24,707 nt of DNA. Origin: a virus. Position numbers and translations under genes: made by a program. The notes under the pieces are model-generated. The model searched no databases, was not told the origin of the DNA, and saw nothing but the letters and a program-made list of their open reading frames with translations. This document shows, in pieces, positions 5,823 through 24,007 of this stretch. The stretch covers positions 1 to 24,707 of IMG/VR virus record IMGVR_UViG_3300028925_005779. One strand, given 5' to 3'. How positions within the stretch are numbered: position 1 is the stretch's first letter; each line of letters starts with the position of its first letter.

Positions 5823-6493
5823 TGGCTTGGTGGATTCCTTTAGCTATGGCTGCAGGTGGTTATGTTATTGATAAACAAATGGGTGGCGATGGAAAGAAAG
5901 GAGCTTTAGCAGGTTTAGCTGGTGGAACAATGCTTCCTGCAGCACCAGCATTAACTTCTGGAACTTTAGGACCTACAGGAGCTACCATGACAGGATTTGG
6001 TGGAGCTGGAGGTTCAGGTTTATTAGGTGGAACTACTACCGCTGCAAATCTTGGTGGCGGATATGCTTCTGGCTCATTAGGGGGTATGACAGGATTTAGT
6101 CCAGCTGTAAAAACTGCTTTACCTAGTGCAATGCCTGTGGCTGCTACAGGTAGCTATCCATCTTCATTAACAACAGGTGGTCAAGGTGTTCTTACTAATG
6201 ATTTAAGTAGCTTATTCACAAAAAGTAAAGATTATGTTACTGATGGATTTAATGATATGTCTTTTGCTGACAAGGCACAAGTAGGTATGCAAGCACAAGG
6301 ATTACTTAATAGACCGACACAACAAATGCAAGCACCTGCAATTCAACAAGCAGAGAATAGAACACAAATCCCTTTAACGGGAAATGGATTAATAACACAG
6401 ATACAAGATAATAATATAATTAATCTACGGAACGAAGCAGAAGAAGAAGAATTAAGATCACAATATTTAAACCGACCTAACTTTTACGGATAA
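5822..6493 (+). CDS. Gly/Ala-rich probable internal virion protein
   Basis: 223 aa, start in a TAATG overlap. The N-terminus is hydrophobic (WWIPLAMAAGGYVIDKQMGG), resembling a glycine-zipper membrane segment, followed by a long Gly/Ala/Thr/Leu low-complexity region to about residue 125. The C-terminal third is polar and Gln-rich (AQVGMQAQGLLNRPTQQMQ), ending with an acidic helix (NEAEEEELRSQYLNR). Glycine-zipper N-termini are seen in ejected virion proteins that enter the cell envelope. No family recognised; function is inferred from neighbours. Confidence 0.5.
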   Translation: MAWWIPLAMAAGGYVIDKQMGGDGKKGALAGLAGGTMLPAAPALTSGTLGPTGATMTGFGGAGGSGLLGGTTTAANLGGGYASGSLGGMTGFSPAVKTALPSAMPVAATGSYPSSLTTGGQGVLTNDLSSLFTKSKDYVTDGFNDMSFADKAQVGMQAQGLLNRPTQQMQAPAIQQAENRTQIPLTGNGLITQIQDNNIINLRNEAEEEELRSQYLNRPNFYG

Positions 6494-6499
6494 AAAAAC

Positions 6500-7894
6500 A
6501 TGGCATTTAACCCACTAGATTTCTTTTCAAATTTACTACCAAAAGACACATCTCTTTTTGGAGGGGCTCCTAGTAGTAGCGTTTCAAGACTACAGCAATT
6601 AGGATTGCTTGATGCTGACGCAATAAATAAAGCCAAAAATCAATCTAATATGCAAGGATTATTACAGCTTGGATTAGGTTATTTAGCTCAACCTAAAAAT
6701 CAAGGGTATGGAAGCATGCTACCTTATTTAGCAAAAGCAGCAATTCCAGCAATTCAACAAAGTCAAAAACCTTATGATAACTTACTTGATGAAGCTAATG
6801 TAAATCAGCAAGTTCAACAATACACAGATAATGAATCTCGTAAATTAGGGTTAGAGAATTTTTCATCAGGGTGGGGTGTTCCAAATTCAAACACAACTCA
6901 AACAAGTTACACTGGAAGCGGTCAAGTTCCTAGAGATATTATGCAAAATCAAGACAATGTTTCTCCTTACACAAATTCACAATTAACAGAAAATGCAGCG
7001 CCACAATTTAACACACCAGTTACTACAAATACAGGAATTTTTAATAAAGATAAATATTTTGCAGATCAGTTAGCACAAAAAAATATCACTTTAGATGATT
7101 ATGTTAAATATTCTCCAGTATTAAATCCAGCACAAACATTTACATCTGTCGCTGATGGTGCTTCTTTGGTTAATGCAGTAGGGGAAGAAGTTTACAACAA
7201 TCCAAAAGATGGAAGTGAAAAAAGTAATCTAACAGGCGACATGGCTAACTGGTACAATTTTAACGGTAAATTAAAAGCAGCAGGTGAAAGCCCTTTATCA
7301 TACGAACAATTTAAAAACACATTTCTAGGTGACTCTGCAAGCAGCAAATCTGGCTATAACAAAGGCTTGGATTTGATGCCAGACATAATTAATAATGCAG
7401 CGACTGCCAATGCTGAACTAGGGCTAACAACTGATTTATTAGATAAAATAAACAATGAAGATTATGATTATTTTTCAGGAGCCATGTCTGATGTAAAACT
7501 ATCAATAGCTAAATTTGCTGATAATTTTGGTCTGTTATCAGAGGATTATAAAACAGCAGCGAATAATACAGAATTTATTAATGCTGTATCAAGAGCTGGT
7601 GTATTTAAATTACTTAAACCATTAGGAATAGGAGCAAGAGGGCTTGATACTCCAGCAGAAAGAGATTTCTTAATTGCTGTTTTAACTGGTGATGCTACAA
7701 AAATGCGAAGCACATTTAAGATTATGTTAGAACAAAGACAAGAAACATTTAATGGTGATTTAAGAAAATACAATCAGAATTTAAATGATGGAAATTTAGA
7801 TAAAATGAAAGGCGTATTATCTTATAGAACTACACCATATAATCTAGGGAGTGGTTCATCCACATCTGACTTTAACATTATTGATGTGAGGTAA
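6500..7894 (+). CDS. Probable internal virion / ejection protein
   Basis: 464 aa, no recognised domain. Residues 1-90 hold a hydrophobic helix region (MQGLLQLGLGYLAQPKN; LPYLAKAAIPAIQQSQ). A Gln/Asn/Thr-rich linker follows to about 190. The C-terminal half is a helical domain containing NNAATANAELGLTTDLLDKIN, FKLLKPLGIGARGLDTPAERDF and RSTFKIMLEQRQETFNGDL. The GARGLDTPAE motif region resembles helical parts of large internal proteins in other short-tailed phages. Ribosome site is weak. Its TAA overlaps the next gene by 1 nt. Likely part of the ejectosome; not certain. Confidence 0.5.
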   Translation: MAFNPLDFFSNLLPKDTSLFGGAPSSSVSRLQQLGLLDADAINKAKNQSNMQGLLQLGLGYLAQPKNQGYGSMLPYLAKAAIPAIQQSQKPYDNLLDEANVNQQVQQYTDNESRKLGLENFSSGWGVPNSNTTQTSYTGSGQVPRDIMQNQDNVSPYTNSQLTENAAPQFNTPVTTNTGIFNKDKYFADQLAQKNITLDDYVKYSPVLNPAQTFTSVADGASLVNAVGEEVYNNPKDGSEKSNLTGDMANWYNFNGKLKAAGESPLSYEQFKNTFLGDSASSKSGYNKGLDLMPDIINNAATANAELGLTTDLLDKINNEDYDYFSGAMSDVKLSIAKFADNFGLLSEDYKTAANNTEFINAVSRAGVFKLLKPLGIGARGLDTPAERDFLIAVLTGDATKMRSTFKIMLEQRQETFNGDLRKYNQNLNDGNLDKMKGVLSYRTTPYNLGSGSSTSDFNIIDVR

Positions 7895-9837
7895 TGATGC
7901 TGAAAACTTATACAGTAGAATTTAAAGGAAAAACTTATACGCTTGAGGGGAATAAACCACCCACAAGAAAAGATTTAGTTAAAATTGAAGAATTGCAAAA
8001 AATTAAAAGAATGAAGGAGTCGATTCCAGAAACTGACCAAATTATTAAAGGCGGTCTTATTAATTTAGTTCCAAGCACTTTAGGTGTTGCTAAAGATATT
8101 GGTACTGCAATCATTAATCCTATTGATACACTTTACGATATGAAAGACACTATTTTAGGCGGTGTTAATAATTTAGCTAAAAATGCTGGCATGGATTCGT
8201 GGGATGAGGGAAGAAGAAAGAAGTACGATAGAGAATCTCGAGGTCTTTTCAAAAAAGCAAGAGAGGCGTACGATGCAGGAGATAAAGAGGCTTCTGAAGA
8301 ATTTATTATGAAAGCAACTGAAGTTTCTAACTTATTTGACAAACAAACAAACAACGCATCTGGGGTGTATGAATATTTTAATAAAAAATACAATGATGAA
8401 AAAGGATTTAAAGATACGTTGAAAAATGATCCAGCATCAATTTTGTTAGATTTAAGTGCAATTATTAGCGGAGGGGGTACCCTTGTTGGAAAACTTGCCA
8501 CTTTAAGTTCAAAAGCTAACTTGTTAAGAAGTAAAAAATTAAAACAACCAAAAATATCAAAAACAGACAATAAATTTAATTTACAAAAATCATTAGTTGA
8601 TCAAAATATTGTTACATCAAAAAGACAAGCAGCACCACAAAGAGATTTTTCAGGAATATTTAAAAACGCCTCTGTAGAGAGTGGTCTTCGTGGAGCAAGC
8701 AATGTGCTAAACAAAACAGCAAATGCTATTAACCCAATCAATTACGGAATGAAAGCAGTTACTGGTACAGGTAGCTTATTGGCTCCAGTAGTAAGTGCAT
8801 TAACAACCAGAGGTGGTCCAGGAACTATAAGCACAGCTTTAAGATCTGGTCAAAAAGATATATTAAATACACTTAATCCTTTTTCTAAAAATGAGCCTAA
8901 ATTCTTTTTAGACCAAATGAGAGGAAAATCTAGTCCTGCACAGCTTGTTGATACAGCTAGAGATGCCTTGAGAAGTGTTGTAGCTGGTAAGAATAGGGAT
9001 TATAATACAGGAAAAATTAAGTTAGCAAAGAACGAAACTGCATTGTCTTTTGCAGGCATTGATAAGGCATTAATTACTGCAAGAGATAAATTCTCAATAT
9101 ACAAAGGTCAAATTGTTAATTCTGAAGCAAATAAAATATTAAATACCATTCAAAAAGATATTACTACATGGAAAAAGAATCCAGAGCTACATTCAGCTAT
9201 TGGAATGGATAAATTAAAACAAAAGGTACAAAGCCATATAGAAAGCATAGACCCTAAAAATAGACAAGCTGTAACTGCTGGTAAATCAGTAAGGGCAGAA
9301 ATTGCAAAAACTATCTCAAAACAAGCGCCTGAATATAGTAAAATTATGAAAGAATATGGTAGAGCCTCTGATGTAGTTAAAGAATTAGAAGCAGCATTAT
9401 CTTTAGGAACAAAAAGTGGCGTAGATCAAGCTATAAGAAAATTAACTTCTATTACTAGAAATAATGTCAATACCTCATTTGGCAGAAGAATAGATTTAGT
9501 AAAATTATTAGAAGACGCAGGTGGAAAAGGGCTGATGGAAGAAATTGTTGGCGCATCTTTTCAAGGCTTTAAGCCTAGAGGGTTAGAGGGAGCAATGTCG
9601 CAAAGTGTCGCAGGGTTAGGGGTTGGTGCTGGAGCTGTTGCTGGTGTAGTTAGCCCAGGATTAGTTCTTGGTTTGTTAGCCACGCAATCACCTAGAGTTA
9701 TTGGAGAGATATTGTATAAATTAGGACAAACAGGGGGAGTTCCAGCTAAATTAGTTACTGAATTAGCTAGAATGCCTAAATTTAGAAGTGTAGTGGCTCC
9801 GTATCTTGTGGCTTCTGAAAAGAGCAAGGAACAATAA
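7894..9837 (+). CDS. Large probable internal virion / ejection protein
   Basis: 647 aa, the largest protein here. Residues 1-40 form a small lysine-rich domain (YTVEFKGKTYTLEGNKPPTRKDLVK). There follows a helical region with a charged coiled-coil stretch (about 100-150), then the Lys/Asn-rich centre. The C-terminal 100 residues include a strongly hydrophobic Gly/Ala/Val block (VAGLGVGAGAVAGVVSPGLV) likely to enter membrane. Size, place just before lysis genes, and amphipathic build fit a DNA ejection channel component like T7 gp15/gp16 in role, not in demonstrated homology. Two adjacent in-frame ATGs (7894, 7897) follow a GAGG site; the first gives a TAATG overlap. Confidence 0.5.
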   Translation: MMLKTYTVEFKGKTYTLEGNKPPTRKDLVKIEELQKIKRMKESIPETDQIIKGGLINLVPSTLGVAKDIGTAIINPIDTLYDMKDTILGGVNNLAKNAGMDSWDEGRRKKYDRESRGLFKKAREAYDAGDKEASEEFIMKATEVSNLFDKQTNNASGVYEYFNKKYNDEKGFKDTLKNDPASILLDLSAIISGGGTLVGKLATLSSKANLLRSKKLKQPKISKTDNKFNLQKSLVDQNIVTSKRQAAPQRDFSGIFKNASVESGLRGASNVLNKTANAINPINYGMKAVTGTGSLLAPVVSALTTRGGPGTISTALRSGQKDILNTLNPFSKNEPKFFLDQMRGKSSPAQLVDTARDALRSVVAGKNRDYNTGKIKLAKNETALSFAGIDKALITARDKFSIYKGQIVNSEANKILNTIQKDITTWKKNPELHSAIGMDKLKQKVQSHIESIDPKNRQAVTAGKSVRAEIAKTISKQAPEYSKIMKEYGRASDVVKELEAALSLGTKSGVDQAIRKLTSITRNNVNTSFGRRIDLVKLLEDAGGKGLMEEIVGASFQGFKPRGLEGAMSQSVAGLGVGAGAVAGVVSPGLVLGLLATQSPRVIGEILYKLGQTGGVPAKLVTELARMPKFRSVVAPYLVASEKSKEQ

Positions 9838-10040
9838 TGGATAGCATAAACCCAGTAGAGTTTGGCAAAATGAAAGAGCAGATCGAACAATTACAAAAAG
9901 GTCAGGACGAACTTCGAAAAGACATGAAAGAAATGCTTGCTTTAGCTAATAAATCTAAAGGTGGTTTTTGGATGGGTATGGGGATAGCTTCGTTTGTGGG
10001 TGGCTTAATATCTATAGCTATTAGGAACTGGATTCAATAA
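9837..10040 (+). CDS. Small coiled-coil membrane protein, lysis-region
   Basis: 67 aa. Residues 8-40 form a heptad-like helix (KMKEQIEQLQKGQDELRKDMKEM) and residues about 45-66 a single membrane segment (FWMGMGIASFVGGLISIAI). The layout 'coiled coil then one C-terminal TM' is common in small phage proteins beside holins, sometimes haemolysin XhlA-like. Starts and ends in TAATG overlaps, so it is translated with its neighbours. Probably an accessory lysis protein; may act with the next membrane peptide and the 3TM holin. Confidence 0.55.
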   Translation: MDSINPVEFGKMKEQIEQLQKGQDELRKDMKEMLALANKSKGGFWMGMGIASFVGGLISIAIRNWIQ

Positions 10041-10165
10041 TGAATACAAAACAAGAGTCTTTTGATAAGCTATTTAGTAAGCCAGTAATAATAACAGTTG
10101 CTCTATTAGCAGCACTACCTATTACTCCTGTTATTTTAGCTTTAATTTATGGATGGAGTAACTAA
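10040..10165 (+). CDS. 41-residue membrane peptide, lysis-region
   Basis: Short gene of 41 codons. It starts at the last A of the previous TAA (TAATG) and its own TAA shares its last base with the next ATG, so it is locked into the translational relay. After a polar N-terminus (NTKQESFDKLFSKP) it has one hydrophobic segment of about 23 residues with two prolines (VALLAALPITPVILALIYGW). The predicted topology is one membrane span. Accessory holin or antiholin is a reasonable guess from position; the sequence itself does not identify it. Confidence 0.55.
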   Translation: MNTKQESFDKLFSKPVIITVALLAALPITPVILALIYGWSN

Positions 10166-10536
10166 TGTTAGCAGCACTTATATCACCAGTCGCAGCACTA
10201 CTAGACAAGTTTATACCTGATGCAGACACTAAAAATAAACTAGCACATGAGATAGCTACACTTGCAGAAAGACAAGCACATGAAATTGCATTAGCACAGA
10301 TAGCAGTAAACAAAGAAGATGCTAAAGGTGCATGGTTTCAAGCAGGTTGGCGACCAGCAGTAGGTTGGGTTTGTGTTGCAGGGTTTGCTATAAACTTTCT
10401 TATATCACCATTAGCTGCACCTTTTGGTGTAATAATTCCACAAGCTGATACAGCTACTATGTTACCTGTGTTAATGGGTATGCTAGGTCTAGGTGGTTTA
10501 AGATCATACGAAAAGAAAAATGGTTTAAATAAATGA
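10165..10536 (+). CDS. Holin of the 3TM family
   Basis: 123 aa inner-membrane protein that would form the lesion letting the endolysin reach the cell wall. The N-terminal half is a helix with amphipathic stretch (LAHEIATLAERQAHEIALAQIAVN). The diagnostic part is the GAWFQAGWRPAVGWVC segment at about residues 55-70, followed by two hydrophobic spans (GFAINFLISPLAAPFGVII and MLPVLMGMLGLGGL) and a short basic tail. This matches the Holin_3TMs family layout (PF11351 by recollection). The endolysin gene begins inside its stop codon (ATGA). Confidence 0.8.
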   Translation: MLAALISPVAALLDKFIPDADTKNKLAHEIATLAERQAHEIALAQIAVNKEDAKGAWFQAGWRPAVGWVCVAGFAINFLISPLAAPFGVIIPQADTATMLPVLMGMLGLGGLRSYEKKNGLNK

Positions 10537-10976
10537 TAATGGCAAGTCCTAATTTTAGTATGGATGAATTAACTCATTCAGACACAGCAGCAAGGCATGG
10601 TATAGACAATACACCTAATGATAATGAAAAAGAAAACCTTTATAAATTAGCAATGGAGATGGAAGATGTTAGAGAACTTCTTAATAATAAGCCTATTTTT
10701 GTTAGCAGTGGCTATCGTTGTTTGGCTCTTAATGAATTACTCGGTAGTAAAAAAACATCTGCTCACACTAAAGGATTGGCTGCAGACCTTACTTGTCGTC
10801 AGTACGGAACTCCTAACGAAATTGTATTCGCTCTTATTAATTCCAGTATTCCTTATGACCAGGTTATCTTGGAGTTTAATAGATGGGTCCATATCTCTTT
10901 TTGTGAAGATCAAGAAACACCTCGCAGACAGGCTTTAATTATCAACAAACAAGGCACAATGTTATACTCTGATTAG
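10533..10976 (+). CDS. Endolysin, M15-family zinc peptidase
   Basis: 147 aa cell-wall peptidase (Peptidase_M15_3 type) that would cleave peptidoglycan cross-links at lysis. It begins FSMDELTHSDTAARHGIDNTP, the usual start of this family. The three zinc ligands are visible as His78 and Asp85 in SAHTKGLAADL and His120 in RWVHIS, with the SSGYRC motif at 58-63. No signal peptide, so export depends on the upstream holin. Start at 10533 overlaps the holin stop (ATGATAATGGC); the second ATG at 10539 is an alternative. Length is normal for a single-domain phage endolysin. Confidence 0.88.
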   Translation: MIMASPNFSMDELTHSDTAARHGIDNTPNDNEKENLYKLAMEMEDVRELLNNKPIFVSSGYRCLALNELLGSKKTSAHTKGLAADLTCRQYGTPNEIVFALINSSIPYDQVILEFNRWVHISFCEDQETPRRQALIINKQGTMLYSD

Positions 10977-13161: not shown

Positions 13162-14547
13162 ATGACACTAGAAGAATTACAAAAAATAATAGGACAACAA
13201 ACTTCTAACTTGCAATTAAAAATGCCTGCAAGAGAAACTAATCCTAATTACGAGTACGACAATATGGGTCAGCCAATTATTCCAGAATTTAGGGAAAATA
13301 TACCTAATCAAGCATTAAAAATTGGTGGGAACATAATAAACAAAACAAAAGATTTGTTTAACATAAAACCTAAAAATGATATGCTTGGTGAAGATTTTGT
13401 ATATGTTAGAGGTCAGCCTATTCCAATCACAAAAGATGAAAAAGAAATGAGGCAGGAAAATCCACCAGCTGGAATTTTAGGTGATATGATGATTGGTAGC
13501 GGGGGAAATGCTTTAGAAGATTTGGCGTATGGTTATAAACCAAAGACAGAAAATTTAGTAGATTTAGGCTTACTTGGTATTACTCCGTTTTTAGGTGGCA
13601 TTAAAGGGCTTGCGTCAGCCGTAAAAAATACAAACAAGATAACAGATTTTATTCCTAAAAATTATAACAAATTAGATCAAGACTTACTTTTTAACAGTAG
13701 AGTAGATAATAACTTTGTTCCATTAGAAATGGGCTATAAAAATATACCAGACACTTTAGGCGGCAGAAGAATAGATACAGACATAGCAAGGGAGCTAATG
13801 CCAGAATATAACTCTGGCAATATTTTAGAAAGGATGCTTGGTATAACAGGAAGTCGTTATCGCTCTAGTGATGCACATCAAGGAGCTAGTAATTTTAGCT
13901 CACGCCTTTTTGATGAATTATTAAAAGACCCTATACCAAAAGGAATTAGTGATAAGGCTACATTTACTAGTGGTGGAGCTGGCTCTGGAAAAACAAGCAG
14001 CCTAACAAAGCTAATTGATCCTTCTTCTAAAGTAATTCGTGATACAACTTTATCTAATTACCCAAAAGCAGTAAATCAAATTGACAATGCTATAAAATCT
14101 CATACTGGCAAAACACCTGTAGATATTTTTTATGTAAACAAAAGCCCAATAGATTCTTTTGAAAATATTATAAAAAGAACTTCACGACAAGTAGAAGAAT
14201 TTGGTAGTGGCAGAATTGTGAATATTGATGAAGCAAAAAGGACTCACTCAAACTCTTTAAAAACAATTAAAAAATTAAAAAGACATTACAAAAATAACGA
14301 TTTAGTTAATATTAAAATTGTTGATAATAATAAAAAAACCCCTAAAATATCATCATTAGATAAACTTCCTAAATCAATAAAGCCTGAAATTCTTGAAAAT
14401 AAGTTTATAGATATATTAACGGAAGCAAGAAAAAGTGATAAAATTGATCAAGATGTTTATACAAAAATGCTAAATGGAAGAACTGACCCTTTAGCTATAA
14501 AGCCAACTATAGGTGAAACAGTTGGCGATATAATATATGGCTTTTAA
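13162..14547 (+). CDS. Late protein with zeta-toxin-like P-loop kinase domain
   Basis: 461 aa. Residues 1-200 are a non-enzymatic leader with Pro-rich start and a hydrophobic helix (VDLGLLGITPFLGGIKGLAS), like internal virion proteins. A P-loop kinase domain follows: TFTSGGAGSGKTSS (Walker A, residues 271-278), VIRDTTL (291-297) in place of the early acidic motif, and GRIVNIDEAKRTHSNS (from 350) matching the 'GR.V....H' lid region of zeta toxin-type kinases, with a strand near 385 (LVNIKIVDNN). Zeta toxins phosphorylate UDP-activated peptidoglycan precursors; whether this one does is unknown. No antitoxin neighbour is evident. The C-terminus is Lys-rich. Confidence 0.6.
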   Translation: MTLEELQKIIGQQTSNLQLKMPARETNPNYEYDNMGQPIIPEFRENIPNQALKIGGNIINKTKDLFNIKPKNDMLGEDFVYVRGQPIPITKDEKEMRQENPPAGILGDMMIGSGGNALEDLAYGYKPKTENLVDLGLLGITPFLGGIKGLASAVKNTNKITDFIPKNYNKLDQDLLFNSRVDNNFVPLEMGYKNIPDTLGGRRIDTDIARELMPEYNSGNILERMLGITGSRYRSSDAHQGASNFSSRLFDELLKDPIPKGISDKATFTSGGAGSGKTSSLTKLIDPSSKVIRDTTLSNYPKAVNQIDNAIKSHTGKTPVDIFYVNKSPIDSFENIIKRTSRQVEEFGSGRIVNIDEAKRTHSNSLKTIKKLKRHYKNNDLVNIKIVDNNKKTPKISSLDKLPKSIKPEILENKFIDILTEARKSDKIDQDVYTKMLNGRTDPLAIKPTIGETVGDIIYGF

Positions 14548-17316: not shown

Positions 17317-17532
17317 TTATTCTCCATTTAAACAAGTTTCATGTTGTTTCTTTACAAACACTTTACTGCCTGGCGTGGCAGATTTAAACAACTTATCATT
17401 ACTGTTACAAATATAATTATAATGATCTACATTGTATGATACATACATATCCCACATCTTAAAACAAATAGCAATAGTAATTAAATAAACCACTAACCCT
17501 TTTGTAATAATATTCTGAATCCATTTAAGCAT
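17317..17532 (-). CDS. Small membrane protein
   Basis: 71 aa with a TAAAGGAG site upstream. One N-terminal membrane segment (GLVVYLITIAICFKMWDMYV) preceded by a short basic end (LKWIQNIITK), then a polar Cys-containing tail (NYICNSNDK; HETCLNGE). Two Cys in the tail could form a disulphide in the periplasm. First gene of the second minus-strand run, divergent from the pqqA-like gene. No family recognised. Confidence 0.5.
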   Translation of the reverse strand: MLKWIQNIITKGLVVYLITIAICFKMWDMYVSYNVDHYNYICNSNDKLFKSATPGSKVFVKKQHETCLNGE

Positions 17533-17556: not shown

Positions 17557-17586
17557 TTGACATCTTGTTTCTTGATATAATAATAA
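17557..17586 (+). promoter_or_regulatory. Candidate promoter of the pqqA-like gene
   Basis: A consensus -35 box TTGACA (17557-17562) is followed by TATAATAATAA (17576-17586). A TATAAT would sit at only 13 nt, but TAATAA at 17581-17586 gives an 18-nt spacer and AATAAT a 16-nt one. The region is the only one upstream of the island gene, so a promoter is expected here. Confidence 0.5.
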
Positions 17587-17622
17587 AAGTTACATTTTAT
17601 TAATTATAAATAAGGAACTATT

Positions 17623-17694
17623 ATGTGGACAACACCAGCAGCAACAGAAATGCGTTTTGGATTTGAAGTAACCATGTACGTTATGAACAAGTAA
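17623..17694 (+). CDS. pqqA: Coenzyme PQQ precursor peptide PqqA
   Basis: 23-codon gene, ATG with AAGGA 6 nt upstream. The peptide begins MWTTPAATEMRF and ends GFEVTMYVMNK. Length and key positions fit PqqA: Trp2, Pro5, Arg11, Gly13, and the EVT.Y core with Glu15 and Tyr19, the two residues that PqqE cross-links to make the PQQ ring system after PqqD binds the peptide. PqqA is the source of the whole cofactor and is used up one per PQQ. Here it is on the plus strand, alone, with candidate promoter and terminator, between minus-strand genes, and without pqqB-E. So host enzymes would have to process it. Identity is strong; benefit to the phage is inference. Confidence 0.88.
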   Translation: MWTTPAATEMRFGFEVTMYVMNK

Positions 17695-17720
17695 AAAAAT
17701 GGGCATCTAGGATGCCCTTT
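17693..17720. terminator. Bidirectional intrinsic terminator after pqqA
   Basis: A perfect 7-bp stem, GGGCATC / GATGCCC, with loop TAG (17708-17710), flanked by seven A's (17693-17699) on one side and TTTCTAATTT on the other. It would stop pqqA transcription on the plus strand and the first minus-strand early run on the other. The stop codon of the minus-strand HTH gene (17707-17709) is within the hairpin. Confidence 0.85.
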
Positions 17721-17949
17721 CTAATTTATATTCAGCAAAAGAACATTTCTTACCAAATCTATTAATAGATTTTTTTGTTATTGTTTTAATATCATGTCCT
17801 TGATTTCTCAAATCATTTATTCTTGAAGCCAACCTTCTAACACCATATTTTTCTCTTGCAATGTTATCGTTAATTACTTTTCTTGATCCACTAAACCAAT
17901 GCTTACTTTCTAAATAAGACAAAATCATTTTATTTTGCGAGGTAGACAT
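17707..17949 (-). CDS. HTH protein of the HTH_39 type
   Basis: 80 aa with an AAAGGAG site 7 nt upstream. The pattern MILSYLESKHWFSGSRKVIN, then YGVRRLASRINDLRNQGHDI, matches small phage helix-turn-helix proteins of the HTH_39 family, where 'RLASRI.DLR..G..I' is the diagnostic part. Presumed DNA-binding regulator. Last gene of the first minus-strand run; its stop lies in a terminator hairpin. The start overlaps the end of a membrane microgene by 25 nt. Confidence 0.7.
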   Translation of the reverse strand: MSTSQNKMILSYLESKHWFSGSRKVINDNIAREKYGVRRLASRINDLRNQGHDIKTITKKSINRFGKKCSFAEYKLERAS

Positions 17950-18045: not shown

Positions 18046-18384
18046 CTAGAAAGGAACATCATCTTTCATGTCAGCTATATCTTGAACTGGCGCCGATTGA
18101 TTTGATTCTCCATACAAGCTTTCTGGTAAATTATTTTTTGTAGGAGCTTTTGATTCCCCTTGCCAAAATACTTTAGTGTTTCCTAATATAACCCCCCTTG
18201 TGCCAGACTCTCTTTCTTCTGAGGTAACTGATTGAGTAATCATGCCGTTGTTGTCATATTGATCTTTATTGTCAAGATCTACAAAGGCTGTGATATTTAA
18301 ATAAGTCCCTTTTTTACCTTTAATAAGTTTTTCTTTATCAATTTTTGTTACATCTATACTTCCCGAAATTCCTACTGTAGCCAT
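18046..18384 (-). CDS. Single-stranded DNA-binding protein
   Basis: 112 aa from the ATG at 18384, preceded by AAGGAG; a longer reading from 18456 would overlap the exonuclease gene without need. Begins ATVGISGSIDVTKIDKEKL, then GKKGTYLNITAFVDLDNKDQ, the strands of an OB fold. The end DMKDDVPF is the acidic tip that recruits partner proteins in SSBs. With the annealase and exonuclease upstream it forms a recombination set. It resembles phage-type SSBs with the KGKKGTY motif rather than classical bacterial SSB. Confidence 0.78.
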   Translation of the reverse strand: MATVGISGSIDVTKIDKEKLIKGKKGTYLNITAFVDLDNKDQYDNNGMITQSVTSEERESGTRGVILGNTKVFWQGESKAPTKNNLPESLYGESNQSAPVQDIADMKDDVPF

Positions 18385-18385
18385 T

Positions 18386-18970
18386 TTATTTCTCCTTGTT
18401 AAAATTAAACTCTGGTTTCCTCTTGTAGCGAGGTGGTTCTTTATCCTCTGAAACATACCTTAAAAAATCTATAGCTAAAGGCATATACCAGTCAATAAAT
18501 TCTTGATCGTATTGTACCAACTTCGTATGAAAATCATTTGGTGTCCATACAACAAAATGTGCTGCAACTGCGTTTTTATATCCGTTTGCTTGTGCTACTA
18601 ACATCTGTATCTGCATTTGTACCCAGTATCTATCTGGTATAGTGGGATAAATCTTTTGAGTGAATGGACATTTTATCTCAACAGGGACTCCGTTAAGAAA
18701 GCCGTCTGCTGATGCCCCTATAGGAAAATTAGGATGTACCAAGAGCTTATTACCATTCTCACATATATCATTCATGTGTTTTTCAAAGGCTTGTAGTGCA
18801 GTTTCCTCGTGGTCATTCCCCCACTGGGTCATAATATTACCTTTAAAAGGTGCATCACGCAAGGTCTTTTCGCGCCATAGCTTTTTTCTTTCAAAGACTG
18901 ATCCCCATGCAGCTGAAGCAGTTACTATATTATGCCTGCGATTGTCTTTAAGATGATTTTTTGAGTTCAT
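18386..18970 (-). CDS. YqaJ/lambda-type recombination exonuclease
   Basis: 194 aa PD-(D/E)XK nuclease. Start at 18970 (ATG, with AAGGGA 8 nt upstream); a TTG at 18976 is possible. Motifs: WGNDHEETAL (Glu55), IGASADGF (Asp89) and VEIKCP (Glu98, Lys100), followed by YWVQMQIQMLVA, all as in the YqaJ viral recombinase family. It would resect double-strand ends to feed the ERF annealase encoded just upstream; the two genes overlap by 23 nt, and SSB follows. Confidence 0.88.
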   Translation of the reverse strand: MNSKNHLKDNRRHNIVTASAAWGSVFERKKLWREKTLRDAPFKGNIMTQWGNDHEETALQAFEKHMNDICENGNKLLVHPNFPIGASADGFLNGVPVEIKCPFTQKIYPTIPDRYWVQMQIQMLVAQANGYKNAVAAHFVVWTPNDFHTKLVQYDQEFIDWYMPLAIDFLRYVSEDKEPPRYKRKPEFNFNKEK

Positions 18971-19487
18971 TAGCAAAGTCCCTTAATTCAGTTTGTTGGG
19001 TAGCTGATAGTTCAAAAAAGGCAGTATTTAAAGATTTCATTTCGTACGCCTCTCTTAAAGTTTGCTTTGCATCTTCAAGTTCTTTTTTTGATGATGGCTT
19101 ATTTTCGTCAGTATTGTCTGTTGTATCTGCGTCTTTAGTGTCATCAAGAAGTAATAAACCTGCTAACGCATACTTTCTTGCATAGGAAGATGAACTACCA
19201 AAGCTCTGGGCGATATCCATACCTTTACGATTTGGATTAATACCTGCTTGAGCTTTAACACTTATAGATTCCTTTTCTACTGCAAAAACTACAGTTGCTT
19301 CAATGTACATATATTCGTTTACAGATTTAACTTCATCTGTGATCAATATAGTGGCATTATTTTTAGCTAATAAAGGTTTAACTGCTTCTAATATATCTTC
19401 ACAACTGCGATATTTATAATTACCAAATTTATTCATTTGTCCTTTTGGCACCTTTATTTCTTTCTGAATTTCAATTAATTCTTTCAT
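18948..19487 (-). CDS. erf: ERF-family ssDNA annealing recombinase
   Basis: 179 aa. Shows the family's core: FGNYKYRSCEDILEAVKPLL near the start, a strand set (ATILITDEVKSVNEYMYIEA), and AQSFGSSSSYARKYALAGLL with LLDDTKDAD, the hallmark 'G...SYARKYAL..L......DAD'. ERF proteins (P22 type) anneal single strands to circularise or repair phage DNA. An acidic linker (DADTTDNTDENKPSSKKE) and a C-terminal helix domain follow. Has an AAAGGAG site. Overlaps the exonuclease gene. Confidence 0.9.
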   Translation of the reverse strand: MKELIEIQKEIKVPKGQMNKFGNYKYRSCEDILEAVKPLLAKNNATILITDEVKSVNEYMYIEATVVFAVEKESISVKAQAGINPNRKGMDIAQSFGSSSSYARKYALAGLLLLDDTKDADTTDNTDENKPSSKKELEDAKQTLREAYEMKSLNTAFFELSATQQTELRDFANELKKSS

Positions 19488-21534: not shown

Positions 21535-21942
21535 ATGTCCACACAACAAAGTTTAGAAATGTTTGACAAAGAAGAAAATGATCTTATTGAAACAACTTAT
21601 ACAAAAAAAATTGATGTGCCATTATATGTACCTACATATAAAAAGCCAAACATTCACGAACTTGCAAGTTATTTAAAATCTACAAAATTAACGCAAGCAA
21701 TAAAAAATTCTAATGTAACAGAAGAAGAAAAAAACTTTTTAATTCAAGCAGCTTATAGGCACACAATATTTAATTTTGCAAAAATTGCTGATTATTACGC
21801 ACACGCAGACAAAGAAATGCAAGAATTAATGGAACAAAGTGCTTTAGTTATTGTTGATTTTGATAAAGCCATTGAATGTGGATTTGTTGCTTTAAATGAT
21901 CAGCTTTCAAATCAATATTTAGAGGAACAAAATGCTAAATAA
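21535..21942 (+). CDS. Small conserved protein of the DNA-modification neighbourhood
   Basis: 135 aa with a GAGGAG site. After a polar acidic start (LEMFDKEENDLIETTY) comes KIDVPLYVPTYKKPNIHELA, a helix region (NVTEEEKNFLIQAAYRHTIF), and the well-marked FAKIADYYAHADKEMQELME followed by ALVIVDFDKAIECGFVAL. I recall that YYAH...LME.SALVI.DFD.AIE.GFV text from phage proteins near or fused to ParB/DNA-methylase-type genes; this is memory, not a search. Function unknown. It overlaps the glycosyltransferase gene by 11 nt, suggesting joint expression. Confidence 0.55.
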   Translation: MSTQQSLEMFDKEENDLIETTYTKKIDVPLYVPTYKKPNIHELASYLKSTKLTQAIKNSNVTEEEKNFLIQAAYRHTIFNFAKIADYYAHADKEMQELMEQSALVIVDFDKAIECGFVALNDQLSNQYLEEQNAK

Positions 21943-22810
21943 TTTTTGTGTTTTTATTTTAACTCATAATCGACATGATAGAGTTTACACATACAAAACT
22001 TTGAGAGATAAAAATTACACAGGAAAAATTTTTATTATTTTAGATGATGAAGATAAATCTTATGATGAGTATGTAAAGTTATACAAAGATCAAGTTATTG
22101 TGTTTTCAAAAAAAGAAGCAGAAAAAACTTTTGATATAGGTGATAATTTCAATGATAGACGAGCTGTTGTTTTTGCTAGAAATGCTTGTTTCAATATTGC
22201 TAAAAAATTAAATTACAAATATTTTTTAGTGCTTGATGACGATTACACTGATTTTAGATGGTCTTTTGATAACAACAAAAAATATGTAACAAATAAATAT
22301 ATGAAAAATCTAAACAAAATATTTGAGATCATGTTAAATTTTTACAAAAAAACATCTTTTACCAGTATCTGTATGGCGCAAGGAGGTGATTTTATTGGAG
22401 GAGCCGGAAGCGGATTAAGTCAAACATTCATAAATGGTCAAATTTCAAGAAAAATTATGAATAGTTTTTTGTGTTCAGTTGATAGACCTTTTCAATTTGT
22501 AGGAAGAATCAATGAAGATGTAAATGCTTATTGTTATTTTGGTAACAAAGGACATTTATTTATGACTGTTGCCCAATTAAGGTTGGAGCAAAAAGCAACA
22601 CAAAGTAATGCGGGTGGCTTAACTGATATATATTTAGGCTCAGGAACTTATGTAAAAAGTTTTTATTCTGTGTTATATAACCCTTCCAGTGTTAAGGTAA
22701 GACTAATGGGTCAAAGTAATAAAAGATTGCATCACAGCATTAATTGGGATGCTACAGTACCTAAAATTATTTCTGAAAAGTTTAAAAATTATGGCAAAGA
22801 AAAAGAATAA
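21932..22810 (+). CDS. TET-associated-type DNA glycosyltransferase
   Basis: 292 aa. Reads as the TAGT (TET-associated glycosyltransferase) family, related to the GREB1 C-terminal domain, known to add sugars to oxidised 5-methylpyrimidines in phage DNA. Motifs: CVFILTHNRHDRVYTYKTL (residues 6-24), IFIILDDEDKS (33-43), FDIGDNFNDRRAVVFARNAC (67-86), LVLDDDYTDFRW with the metal-binding Asp triplet (102-104), and GRINEDVNAY near residue 190. GAGGAAC before the ATG is the ribosome site, inside the previous gene. No TET/JBP dioxygenase or hydroxymethylase lies in the window. Sugar and base are unknown; general type is well supported. Confidence 0.75.
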   Translation: MLNNFCVFILTHNRHDRVYTYKTLRDKNYTGKIFIILDDEDKSYDEYVKLYKDQVIVFSKKEAEKTFDIGDNFNDRRAVVFARNACFNIAKKLNYKYFLVLDDDYTDFRWSFDNNKKYVTNKYMKNLNKIFEIMLNFYKKTSFTSICMAQGGDFIGGAGSGLSQTFINGQISRKIMNSFLCSVDRPFQFVGRINEDVNAYCYFGNKGHLFMTVAQLRLEQKATQSNAGGLTDIYLGSGTYVKSFYSVLYNPSSVKVRLMGQSNKRLHHSINWDATVPKIISEKFKNYGKEKE

Positions 22811-23084
22811 AACAAAAGACGAAAAACAGTGGCTCAATAAAATGTCAGAGTTTGGATGCTGCATATGTAAAAGATACTATGACGAGATTGATGCACCACC
22901 TGCAAATTTACATCACATTAGAGAAGGTATGGGCATGGGTCAAAAAAATAATCACTTTATGGTTTTACCACTTTGCCATCATCACCATCAAGGTAAAGAT
23001 GGGTTTCATACAAGTCCAAAAAAATGGGTTGAAGCATATGGAAAAGAAAGCAAAATGCTGGAATGGGTATTGGAGAGCTTATGA
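22791..23084 (+). CDS. Ref-type HNH nuclease
   Basis: 97 aa from the ATG at 22791, which overlaps the glycosyltransferase end by 20 nt; an earlier in-frame ATG at 22749 is less likely. The family pattern is plain: FGCCICK (Cys23, 24, 26), LHHIREGMGMGQKNNHF (His41-His42), LPLCHHHHQG (Cys62, His63-66) and GFHTSPKKWVEAYG, as in the RecA-dependent nuclease Ref of phage P1. This is the short form, lacking the N-terminal extension of P1 Ref. The last residues (LEWVLESL) are repeated in a second version after the next gene. Ends in an ATGA overlap. Confidence 0.85.
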   Translation: MAKKKNKTKDEKQWLNKMSEFGCCICKRYYDEIDAPPANLHHIREGMGMGQKNNHFMVLPLCHHHHQGKDGFHTSPKKWVEAYGKESKMLEWVLESL

Positions 23085-24007
23085 AGGTGTTACCAATACA
23101 ACATTATGAAACTAAAGAATGGTTATTAAAAAAACATTACGCAAAGCGTATGCCTCAAATTTCTTATGCTTTTGGATTGTACATTAATAACGAGCTTGTT
23201 GGTGTTTGTACATATGGTATGCCACCAAGCAGCACTTTAGCTGAAAGTATTGCAGGTAAAAACTTAAAAAAAAATGTATTGGAATTAAACAGATTAATTA
23301 CAACAGATAATTTACCTAAAAATTCTTTATCATACTTTGTATCACAAACATTAAAAATGTTGTCTAATAATTTTATAATTGTATCTTTTGCAGATTCAAA
23401 TGTTGGACATAATGGATATATTTACCAAGCAACTAATTTTATTTACACAGGAATGTCTACAAACACTTCAAAATTAATTGATAAAAATGGAAATGAATTT
23501 CATTTTAGAAATATAGGTCACTACCAACAAAATAATAAACTAAATGTTAAATTAGTAAAACGAAGGGCTGATGAAGGAAATGTTGATCAAATTGATTTGG
23601 CTAATTATCTAAAATTATACAAAGGCAAATGGACAGCTAAACAATTAGATAAAGAGTTTGGTTATAAAGACACTTGCTCTCATTGGTTCAGGACTGATTC
23701 TGGATTTAGTTTTCCAAAGGTAGATGATTGGAAAAAACTTAAAAAAATATTAAAGTTTTGTGATAAATATGACAAAGTAATGACTGCATATAAAATGACT
23801 CCTTGCCCAAATGAAATAATTAAAAAATTAGAATTAACAAAAGTAAAGATTTTACCGAAACATAGGTATATTTATATTACTGGCAATAAAAAATTTAAAA
23901 AACAAGTAACAACAAATTTAAAATTAACACAATTACCTTACCCAAAAAATAAAAATCGTAATTATGATGTAGGTAAAAATGTAAAAACCCAAAAAGTTTT
24001 ATTTTAA
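23081..24007 (+). CDS. Mom-like DNA-modification enzyme with inserted HTH-like domain
   Basis: 308 aa; the ATG at 23081 makes an ATGA overlap with the Ref stop and has GGAGAG 3 nt upstream (23063 is a poorer start). The N-terminal 125 residues match the Mom GNAT-fold family: HYAKRMPQISYAFGLYIN, ELNRLI (68-73), SYFVSQTLKML and SFADSNVGHNGYIYQATNF (102-120). Mu Mom converts adenine in DNA to a carbamoylmethyl form that blocks restriction. Residues about 163-237 form an additional domain (DLANYLKLYKGKWTAKQLD, FGYKDTCSHWFRTDSGFSFP), a pattern I know from phage DNA methylases. The end (KHRYIYITGNKKFKKQ; LPYPKNKNRNYD) is again Mom-like. Confidence 0.78.
   Translation: MKVLPIQHYETKEWLLKKHYAKRMPQISYAFGLYINNELVGVCTYGMPPSSTLAESIAGKNLKKNVLELNRLITTDNLPKNSLSYFVSQTLKMLSNNFIIVSFADSNVGHNGYIYQATNFIYTGMSTNTSKLIDKNGNEFHFRNIGHYQQNNKLNVKLVKRRADEGNVDQIDLANYLKLYKGKWTAKQLDKEFGYKDTCSHWFRTDSGFSFPKVDDWKKLKKILKFCDKYDKVMTAYKMTPCPNEIIKKLELTKVKILPKHRYIYITGNKKFKKQVTTNLKLTQLPYPKNKNRNYDVGKNVKTQKVLF

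Follow-up and report, generated by a model that had tools for sequence, protein, structure and literature searches.

A 23-codon pqqA gene on a viral DNA fragment: a candidate auxiliary metabolic gene in phages of methylotrophic bacteria

The pqqA unit and its phage neighbourhood

The DNA analysed here is a linear IMG/VR virus fragment of 24,707 bases, and this whole stretch is referred to as the window. It contains a short gene, pqqA, that is flanked by phage genes on either side, as judged by scans of the window proteins, and tail, holin, endolysin and DNA-modification genes are found elsewhere in it. The features in and around pqqA are as follows.

17317-17532, minus strand: divergent neighbour, open reading frame of 71 aa, no Pfam match
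17557-17584, plus strand: sigma-70-like promoter candidate, TTGACA-16-AATAAT (scan; consensus match 11/12)
17612-17617, plus strand: Shine-Dalgarno AAGGAA, 5 nt 5' of the ATG (read from the sequence; invariant in relatives)
17623-17694, plus strand: pqqA, 23 codons and stop, PQQ precursor peptide (PF08042, E 3e-10; TIGR02107, E 5.6e-10; identical to chromosomal PqqA of Methylophilaceae)
17701-17717, either strand: G+C-rich hairpin of 7 bp that resembles a terminator on both strands; lies between pqqA and its converging neighbour (scan; perfect pairing in the fold)
17707-17949, minus strand: converging neighbour, winged helix-turn-helix protein (HTH_39; PF14090, 4.8e-10)
18046-18384, minus strand: 112-aa recombination-block protein, resembling SSB only in its position (open reading frame; no Pfam match)
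18386-18976, minus strand: YqaJ/RecE-like exonuclease (PF09588, 1.7e-14; phrog_434)
18948-19487, minus strand: ERF ssDNA-annealing protein (PF04404, 4.3e-34)

The coding sequence extends from the ATG at 17623 to the stop codon at 17692-17694 and specifies 23 aa (MWTTPAATEMRFGFEVTMYVMNK). A preliminary description of this DNA had identified the product as PqqA and proposed a comparison with the family models, which confirmed that the feature is real and is PqqA. Both curated cut-offs were exceeded at full length (Pfam PF08042, 40.3 bits, cut-off 21.1, profile positions 1-19 of 19; NCBIfam equivalog TIGR02107, 38.8 bits, cut-off 20, positions 1-21 of 21), and the peptide contains both Glu15 and Tyr19, the E-x-x-x-Y motif joined by PqqE. 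This gene is the only PqqA match in the 24.7-kb record. That no other pqq gene lies alongside, as also claimed, holds for the fragment, which represents an incomplete genome with the remaining phage genes outside view: PqqE is absent, and no other pqq gene was found among 30 further window proteins scanned.

The gene had been described as a stand-alone unit, and its signals agree with this: a TTGACA-16-AATAAT promoter candidate, a Shine-Dalgarno sequence and a hairpin with a T-rich tail, with both flanking genes on the minus strand. Promoter-like sites are not above chance by count in the region (4 found, 5.4 expected), and the candidate in the window therefore rests on its quality (11/12) and on the invariance of both hexamers in five close relatives, among which one spacer base varies. 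Terminator-like hairpins number 2 in the region, against 0.2 expected. Because a T-rich tail is present on both strands of the hairpin, it can terminate pqqA and the converging minus-strand gene alike. The unit showed no unusual RNA fold (z -0.13) and no match to Rfam.

DNA similarity to Methylophilales phage Venkman (EXVC282S, MT375522) amounts to 81% over two pieces near pqqA and 79% over 503 bases elsewhere, but near-identity alignment covers only ∼2% of the window. Venkman contains an unannotated pqqA at 9977-10045, encoding a peptide 91% identical to that of the window, and this gene likewise lies between minus-strand genes, beside the YqaJ recombinase block and in the same orientation. 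The window shares with phages of the Venkman/P19250A type DNA matches as well as the kinds of neighbour and the orientation around pqqA. These sequence comparisons are best explained if the window comes from a Venkman-like phage whose host is an OM43-type methylotroph (Methylophilaceae). Two host guesses had been offered at the outset; OM43-type Methylophilaceae are indicated by the closest phage as well as by the host peptide of identical sequence, which favours the methylotroph and speaks against an alphaproteobacterium. The latter was rejected, as a PqqA query of alphaproteobacterial type had no match in phage records and few viral contigs. Elsewhere in the window, a Mom-family DNA modification protein (23063-24007) and a TET-associated glycosyltransferase (21932-22810) are encoded, making hypermodified phage DNA possible, and a zeta-toxin-like domain is present in a 461-aa protein (13162-14547).

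Distribution, selection and unit signals of viral pqqA

A tblastn search of PqqA against 50,697 phage records returned Methylophilaceae phage P19250A, Methylophilales phages Venkman, MEP301, MEP401 and MEP402, four Melnitz variants and one unassigned spring phage (Manatee Spring). pqqA is annotated as such in none of these records and is unmentioned in the published descriptions of Venkman, Melnitz, MEP301 and MEP401/402; it was overlooked because 23-codon genes are not called. Antisense hypothetical ORFs, probably spurious, are annotated over pqqA in a Melnitz record (L008, 2461-2556, minus strand) and in the Manatee Spring phage (L005, 2067-2195, minus strand). Every OM43/LD28 phage type found by the search has pqqA (P19250A, Venkman, MEP301, MEP401/402, Melnitz), a statement that leaves out MEP431-434, EXVC038S, RSA-MFP1 and MG-MTP1 and does not extend to all cultured methylophages. 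The positive records bear differing family labels (Zobellviridae, Kyanoviridae, unassigned Caudoviricetes), and the trait therefore crosses phage lineages; the Venkman/P19250A type, MEP301, Zobellviridae and Kyanoviridae are unrelated among OM43 phages.

In IMG/VR, an exact motif scan detected at least 120 contigs with pqqA. When records were instead gathered via the neighbouring RecE-like gene, PqqA was present in 22 of 41 and was not seen in the other 19, with many short fragments in the set. One near relative of the window phage (L014) has neither pqqA nor the adjacent HTH gene, which indicates gain or loss of the gene among relatives. PqqE was found in 0 of 46 pqqA-bearing virus records. 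Based on these sequences, pqqA appears to be a general trait of the OM43/LD28 phage types examined, beyond a single report from 2020. A single record was labelled as a phage of a non-methylotroph (Acinetobacter phage MD-2021a, CAKLQF020000010.1) and was discarded; it contains a full pqqBCDE operon and ppk and is probably mis-filed bacterial DNA. A different PqqA type (RLGFEVTMYFK..) occurs on five viral contigs (L319, L321-L324), suggesting phages of other PQQ makers, and a contig from a bacterial bin (L279, CAIYXB010000030.1) resembles phage P19250A around pqqA (80% over 379 nt) and is probably a phage contig.

Selection was estimated from 21 distinct coding sequences comprising the RecE-neighbour set and the isolates, and thus collected mainly by a neighbouring phage gene. 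dN/dS is ∼0.11, synonymous sites are near saturation and the peptide is nearly constant. Glu15 and Tyr19 are invariant in all 21, which answers a check proposed in the preliminary description, namely whether related phages keep the two residues. Since pattern scans fix part of the motif, selection was measured outside the pattern (dN/dS 0.20) in addition to this set. Judged by these substitution patterns, purifying selection acts on the pqqA coding sequence, and its target is the protein sequence.

Unit signals were surveyed at 126 viral pqqA loci with distinct flanks, the controls being mechanical ORFs on the same contigs, some of which are possibly not genes. A perfect G+C-rich hairpin followed by T occurs within 70 nt of 48/126 viral pqqA genes and 51/2245 other ORFs, and TATAAT is found in the 100 nt upstream of 53/126 and 135/1919, respectively. 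The excess of hairpins is seen both where the following gene runs in the same direction (23/53 vs 31/1308) and where it runs in the opposite direction (24/68 vs 9/211). Orientation varies, with 43 loci along both neighbours, 43 opposed to both and 29 mixed. 'Stand-alone' therefore describes the signals, and opposition to the neighbours, which had been put forward for this gene and is evident in the window, is common but not universal. The consensus promoter, the hairpin and the family-wide enrichment of signals make the window pqqA a candidate autonomous transcription unit. A further motif, TTGATTAAC...AAC before the Shine-Dalgarno, was dropped, as the pattern used found it in only 4/162 viral copies.

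A leader RNA and a group I intron in T4-like relatives

In T4-like relatives, pqqA is preceded by a leader element of the form CUCAAG - stem - CYU - hairpin - stem - UGANYUG, with a covarying stem of 5-6 bp and conserved flanks. It is located 31-42 nt upstream of pqqA in the phage type. Representative positions are:

L110, 6019-6062: leader, T4-like methylophage
L124, 3033-3076: leader, T4-like methylophage
L105, 626-669: leader, T4-like methylophage
L077, 811-854: leader, T4-like methylophage
L170, 9650-9702: leader, T4-like methylophage
LSUCC0665, 875354-875401, minus strand: leader in the host, before the OM43 tandem pqqA

In an alignment of fifteen phage and host sequences, 98.7% of cells pair in the 5-bp stem and 21 double changes occur. 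Covariation scores 0.80, compared with 0.26 for shuffles (0/500) and no more than 0.19 on sliding. With a covariance model, the element is detected upstream of pqqA on T4-like phage contigs; in 6/10 OM43/Methylopumilus genomes it occurs once, preceding a pqqA copy in tandem arrangement, and genome G045 gives an additional two matches of weak score (E 0.009 and 0.58). A scan of IMG/VR that left three bases free on each side of the stem gave 78 matches, and all five pairs are formed in 76 of them. After these 76 leaders, pqqA follows in every case with enough downstream sequence, intron-split copies included; some of these genes were read from the sequence where automatic start finding gave none. 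The element has no match in Rfam, and the model gives no match at the window pqqA. By these scans the leader RNA seems specific to pqqA and common to phage and host, no other gene having been found with it. In leader-bearing copies a further hairpin often lies directly before the Shine-Dalgarno, which suggests translational control.

The leader also bears on the origin of the viral gene. In the T4-like contig L170, where pqqA is adjoined by sliding clamp and clamp loader genes, the 100 nt preceding pqqA are 88% identical to OM43 chromosomes. This host-like leader DNA is direct evidence that the phage took pqqA from its host together with the leader. The same contig carries an hsp20 gene, and ROSE_3 RNA thermometer matches are present on two other T4-like methylophage contigs (L124, 1445-1510; L110, 4506-4572).

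Some T4-like copies are interrupted. In eight contigs (L354, L357, L368, L373, L396, L397, L418, L419) an intron interrupts the standard 23-codon frame between bases 1 and 2 of codon 14, and in three more (L390, L400, L407) the split gene is truncated or no exon 2 was found. Intron coordinates are:

L357, 2241-2473, minus strand
L354, 5423-5662, minus strand
L396, 4040-4317, plus strand
L418, 719-950, plus strand
L419, 2509-2748, minus strand

The introns score as group I in Rfam (93.9 bits in L418, 70.0 in L354 and L419, 65.3 in L390; gathering score 50), are 232-278 nt long and have no long ORF. Exon and guide covary: the exon ends UUGGGU, UUGGUU and UUGGCU pair with the guides GCCCAA, GACCAA and GGCCAA, the splice site being marked by a U.G wobble. 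Joining the exons gives back full PqqA, and we infer from these features that the introns splice. T4-like replication genes are present on the intron contigs checked (L368, L354). In three contigs (L371, L382, L403) the same leader precedes a pqqA without interruption, and the window pqqA has no intron. A dedicated regulatory RNA, either a riboswitch or a protein-binding control captured by the phages, might govern phage and host pqqA, and splicing may gate production; we hold this tentatively, at slightly under an even chance.

Host copies and the proposed role of phage pqqA

The window peptide is identical to the chromosomal PqqA of many Methylophilaceae genomes, OM43-type among them, and 3 of the 69 coding nt are changed relative to the closest host copy. 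Host copies also resemble the window in being short units with a hairpin terminator (100/127), but the window pqqA is embedded in DNA that does not look like the host's. Each of ten OM43 or Methylopumilus genomes, some of which are incomplete, has 1-5 pqqA copies. The complete OM43 genome LSUCC0665 has three (at 52 kb and 875 kb) and a single pqqBCDE operon at ∼765 kb with no pqqA beside it. The likely host group thus encodes PqqB, C, D and E, the absence of which had been named as evidence against a metabolic role. Cultured Methylophilaceae have 3-12 pqqA copies and usually one pqqBCDE set (PMC4109929). Since every PQQ uses up one PqqA, these bacteria already have its dose raised, and a phage copy increases that dose further. 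In the hosts, pqqA is present in 1-5 copies at dispersed sites and pqqBCDE, where examined, as a single operon, so that the phage copy adds substrate and not enzymes.

These data suggest how the gene could act. A Venkman-like phage would bring a complete host-type pqqA furnished with a promoter, a ribosome-binding site and a terminator of its own. In the infected cell, a short transcript would be translated into PqqA, a normal substrate for host PqqD and PqqE, which would form the Glu15-Tyr19 cross-link. The remaining host enzymes would finish the cross-linked peptide to PQQ, and PQQ would supply the methanol dehydrogenase XoxF, the main energy source of the host. PqqA is the only pathway component used mole for mole, and substrate alone would therefore be the cheapest way to uphold PQQ while host transcription is taken over. 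We infer expression of pqqA in infection, processing by host enzymes and benefit via XoxF from the gene, its host-type peptide, selection on that peptide, the family-wide enrichment of signals and the host gene content (several pqqA, a single pqqBCDE operon), all of which are observed. A host-derived metabolic gene, with a host-identical peptide, lies inside a phage genome, as expected of an auxiliary metabolic gene by location. We consider it probable, from sequence comparison, that the window pqqA is such a gene and sustains PQQ supply for XoxF; several pqqA copies already present in hosts, the relative L014 without the gene and the RecE-set records without pqqA were counted against this. 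A 72-kb phage contig (L336, IMGVR_UViG_3300025120_009955) combines pqqA with genes for a XoxF that shares 87.5% identity with that of OM43 (5990-7864) and for a formate dehydrogenase alpha subunit (7944-10784); curli-like repeats and groEL are also present on it.

Host DNA acquired through recombination could have been retained without function. The gene is tiny and its cost low, relatives of the L014 type do without it, and L170 captured host leader DNA along with it. A passenger is nevertheless unlikely given a dN/dS of ∼0.11, retention in unrelated phage lineages and at least 120 contigs, and promoter and terminator signals far above background. PqqA might instead serve uses of PQQ beyond methanol oxidation, such as an antioxidant or other quinoproteins, and several PQQ-domain matches in one Methylopumilus genome fit this. 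However, the energy metabolism of these methylotrophs centres on XoxF, and L336 carries pqqA, XoxF and formate dehydrogenase together, making such uses quite unlikely as the explanation.

The preliminary description had raised a decoy that ties up PqqD/PqqE as an alternative. By occupying them, the phage peptide would lower PQQ or divert the pathway, weakening the host or excluding other phages. The PqqA precursor binds these proteins by design, and inhibition of host enzymes by phage products is known in general. In an inhibitor, the reacting residues should be lost or changed, but the peptide equals the host substrate with Glu15 and Tyr19 kept, and one phage (L336) pairs XoxF with pqqA. Identity to the host peptide and purifying selection disfavour the decoy, which we regard as very improbable. 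Least probable of all is an activity of the transcript itself, or of the peptide without modification, in the manner of a small RNA or a signal, with the PqqA sequence incidental. A very short transcript with strong terminators and the structured leader in some phage relatives would suit this reading, but selection is on the protein sequence, with synonymous sites near saturation and a nearly constant peptide, and the window unit has neither an unusual fold (z -0.13) nor an Rfam match.

As an auxiliary metabolic gene sustaining PQQ, pqqA would be among the smallest possible. The cyanophage genes psbA and psbD are single-subunit auxiliary metabolic genes, and there too the phage provides the component with the fastest turnover and the host the remaining machine; they encode protein subunits, whereas pqqA encodes a consumed peptide substrate of a cofactor pathway. 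If the proposed role is correct, PQQ in infected cells should be limited by the supply of PqqA, and methanol oxidation in the sea and in fresh water should be influenced by these phages. Venkman or Melnitz on H5P1 are phage-host pairs in culture that suit such tests.

Phage PqqA as a kind is already known, and the clearest prior art found is a Lake Baikal study from 2020, which reported PqqA in phage population VP_266 and methanol dehydrogenase in VP_266 and VP_139 (PMC7678222). As here, PqqA occurred in a predicted Methylophilaceae phage and was proposed to support methanol oxidation; pqqA and XoxF on L336 are consistent with that pairing (PMC7678222). The Baikal phages are T4-like metagenomic contigs, whereas the window derives from a probable small Venkman-like phage without a visible methanol dehydrogenase, and neither the spread to all OM43/LD28 phage types examined nor the autonomous unit was described there (PMC7678222). 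pqqA is also listed among virus-encoded genes in a 2026 paper (PMC13188868). The generality of the trait and the two unexpected RNA features of relatives, leader and intron, add to this picture.
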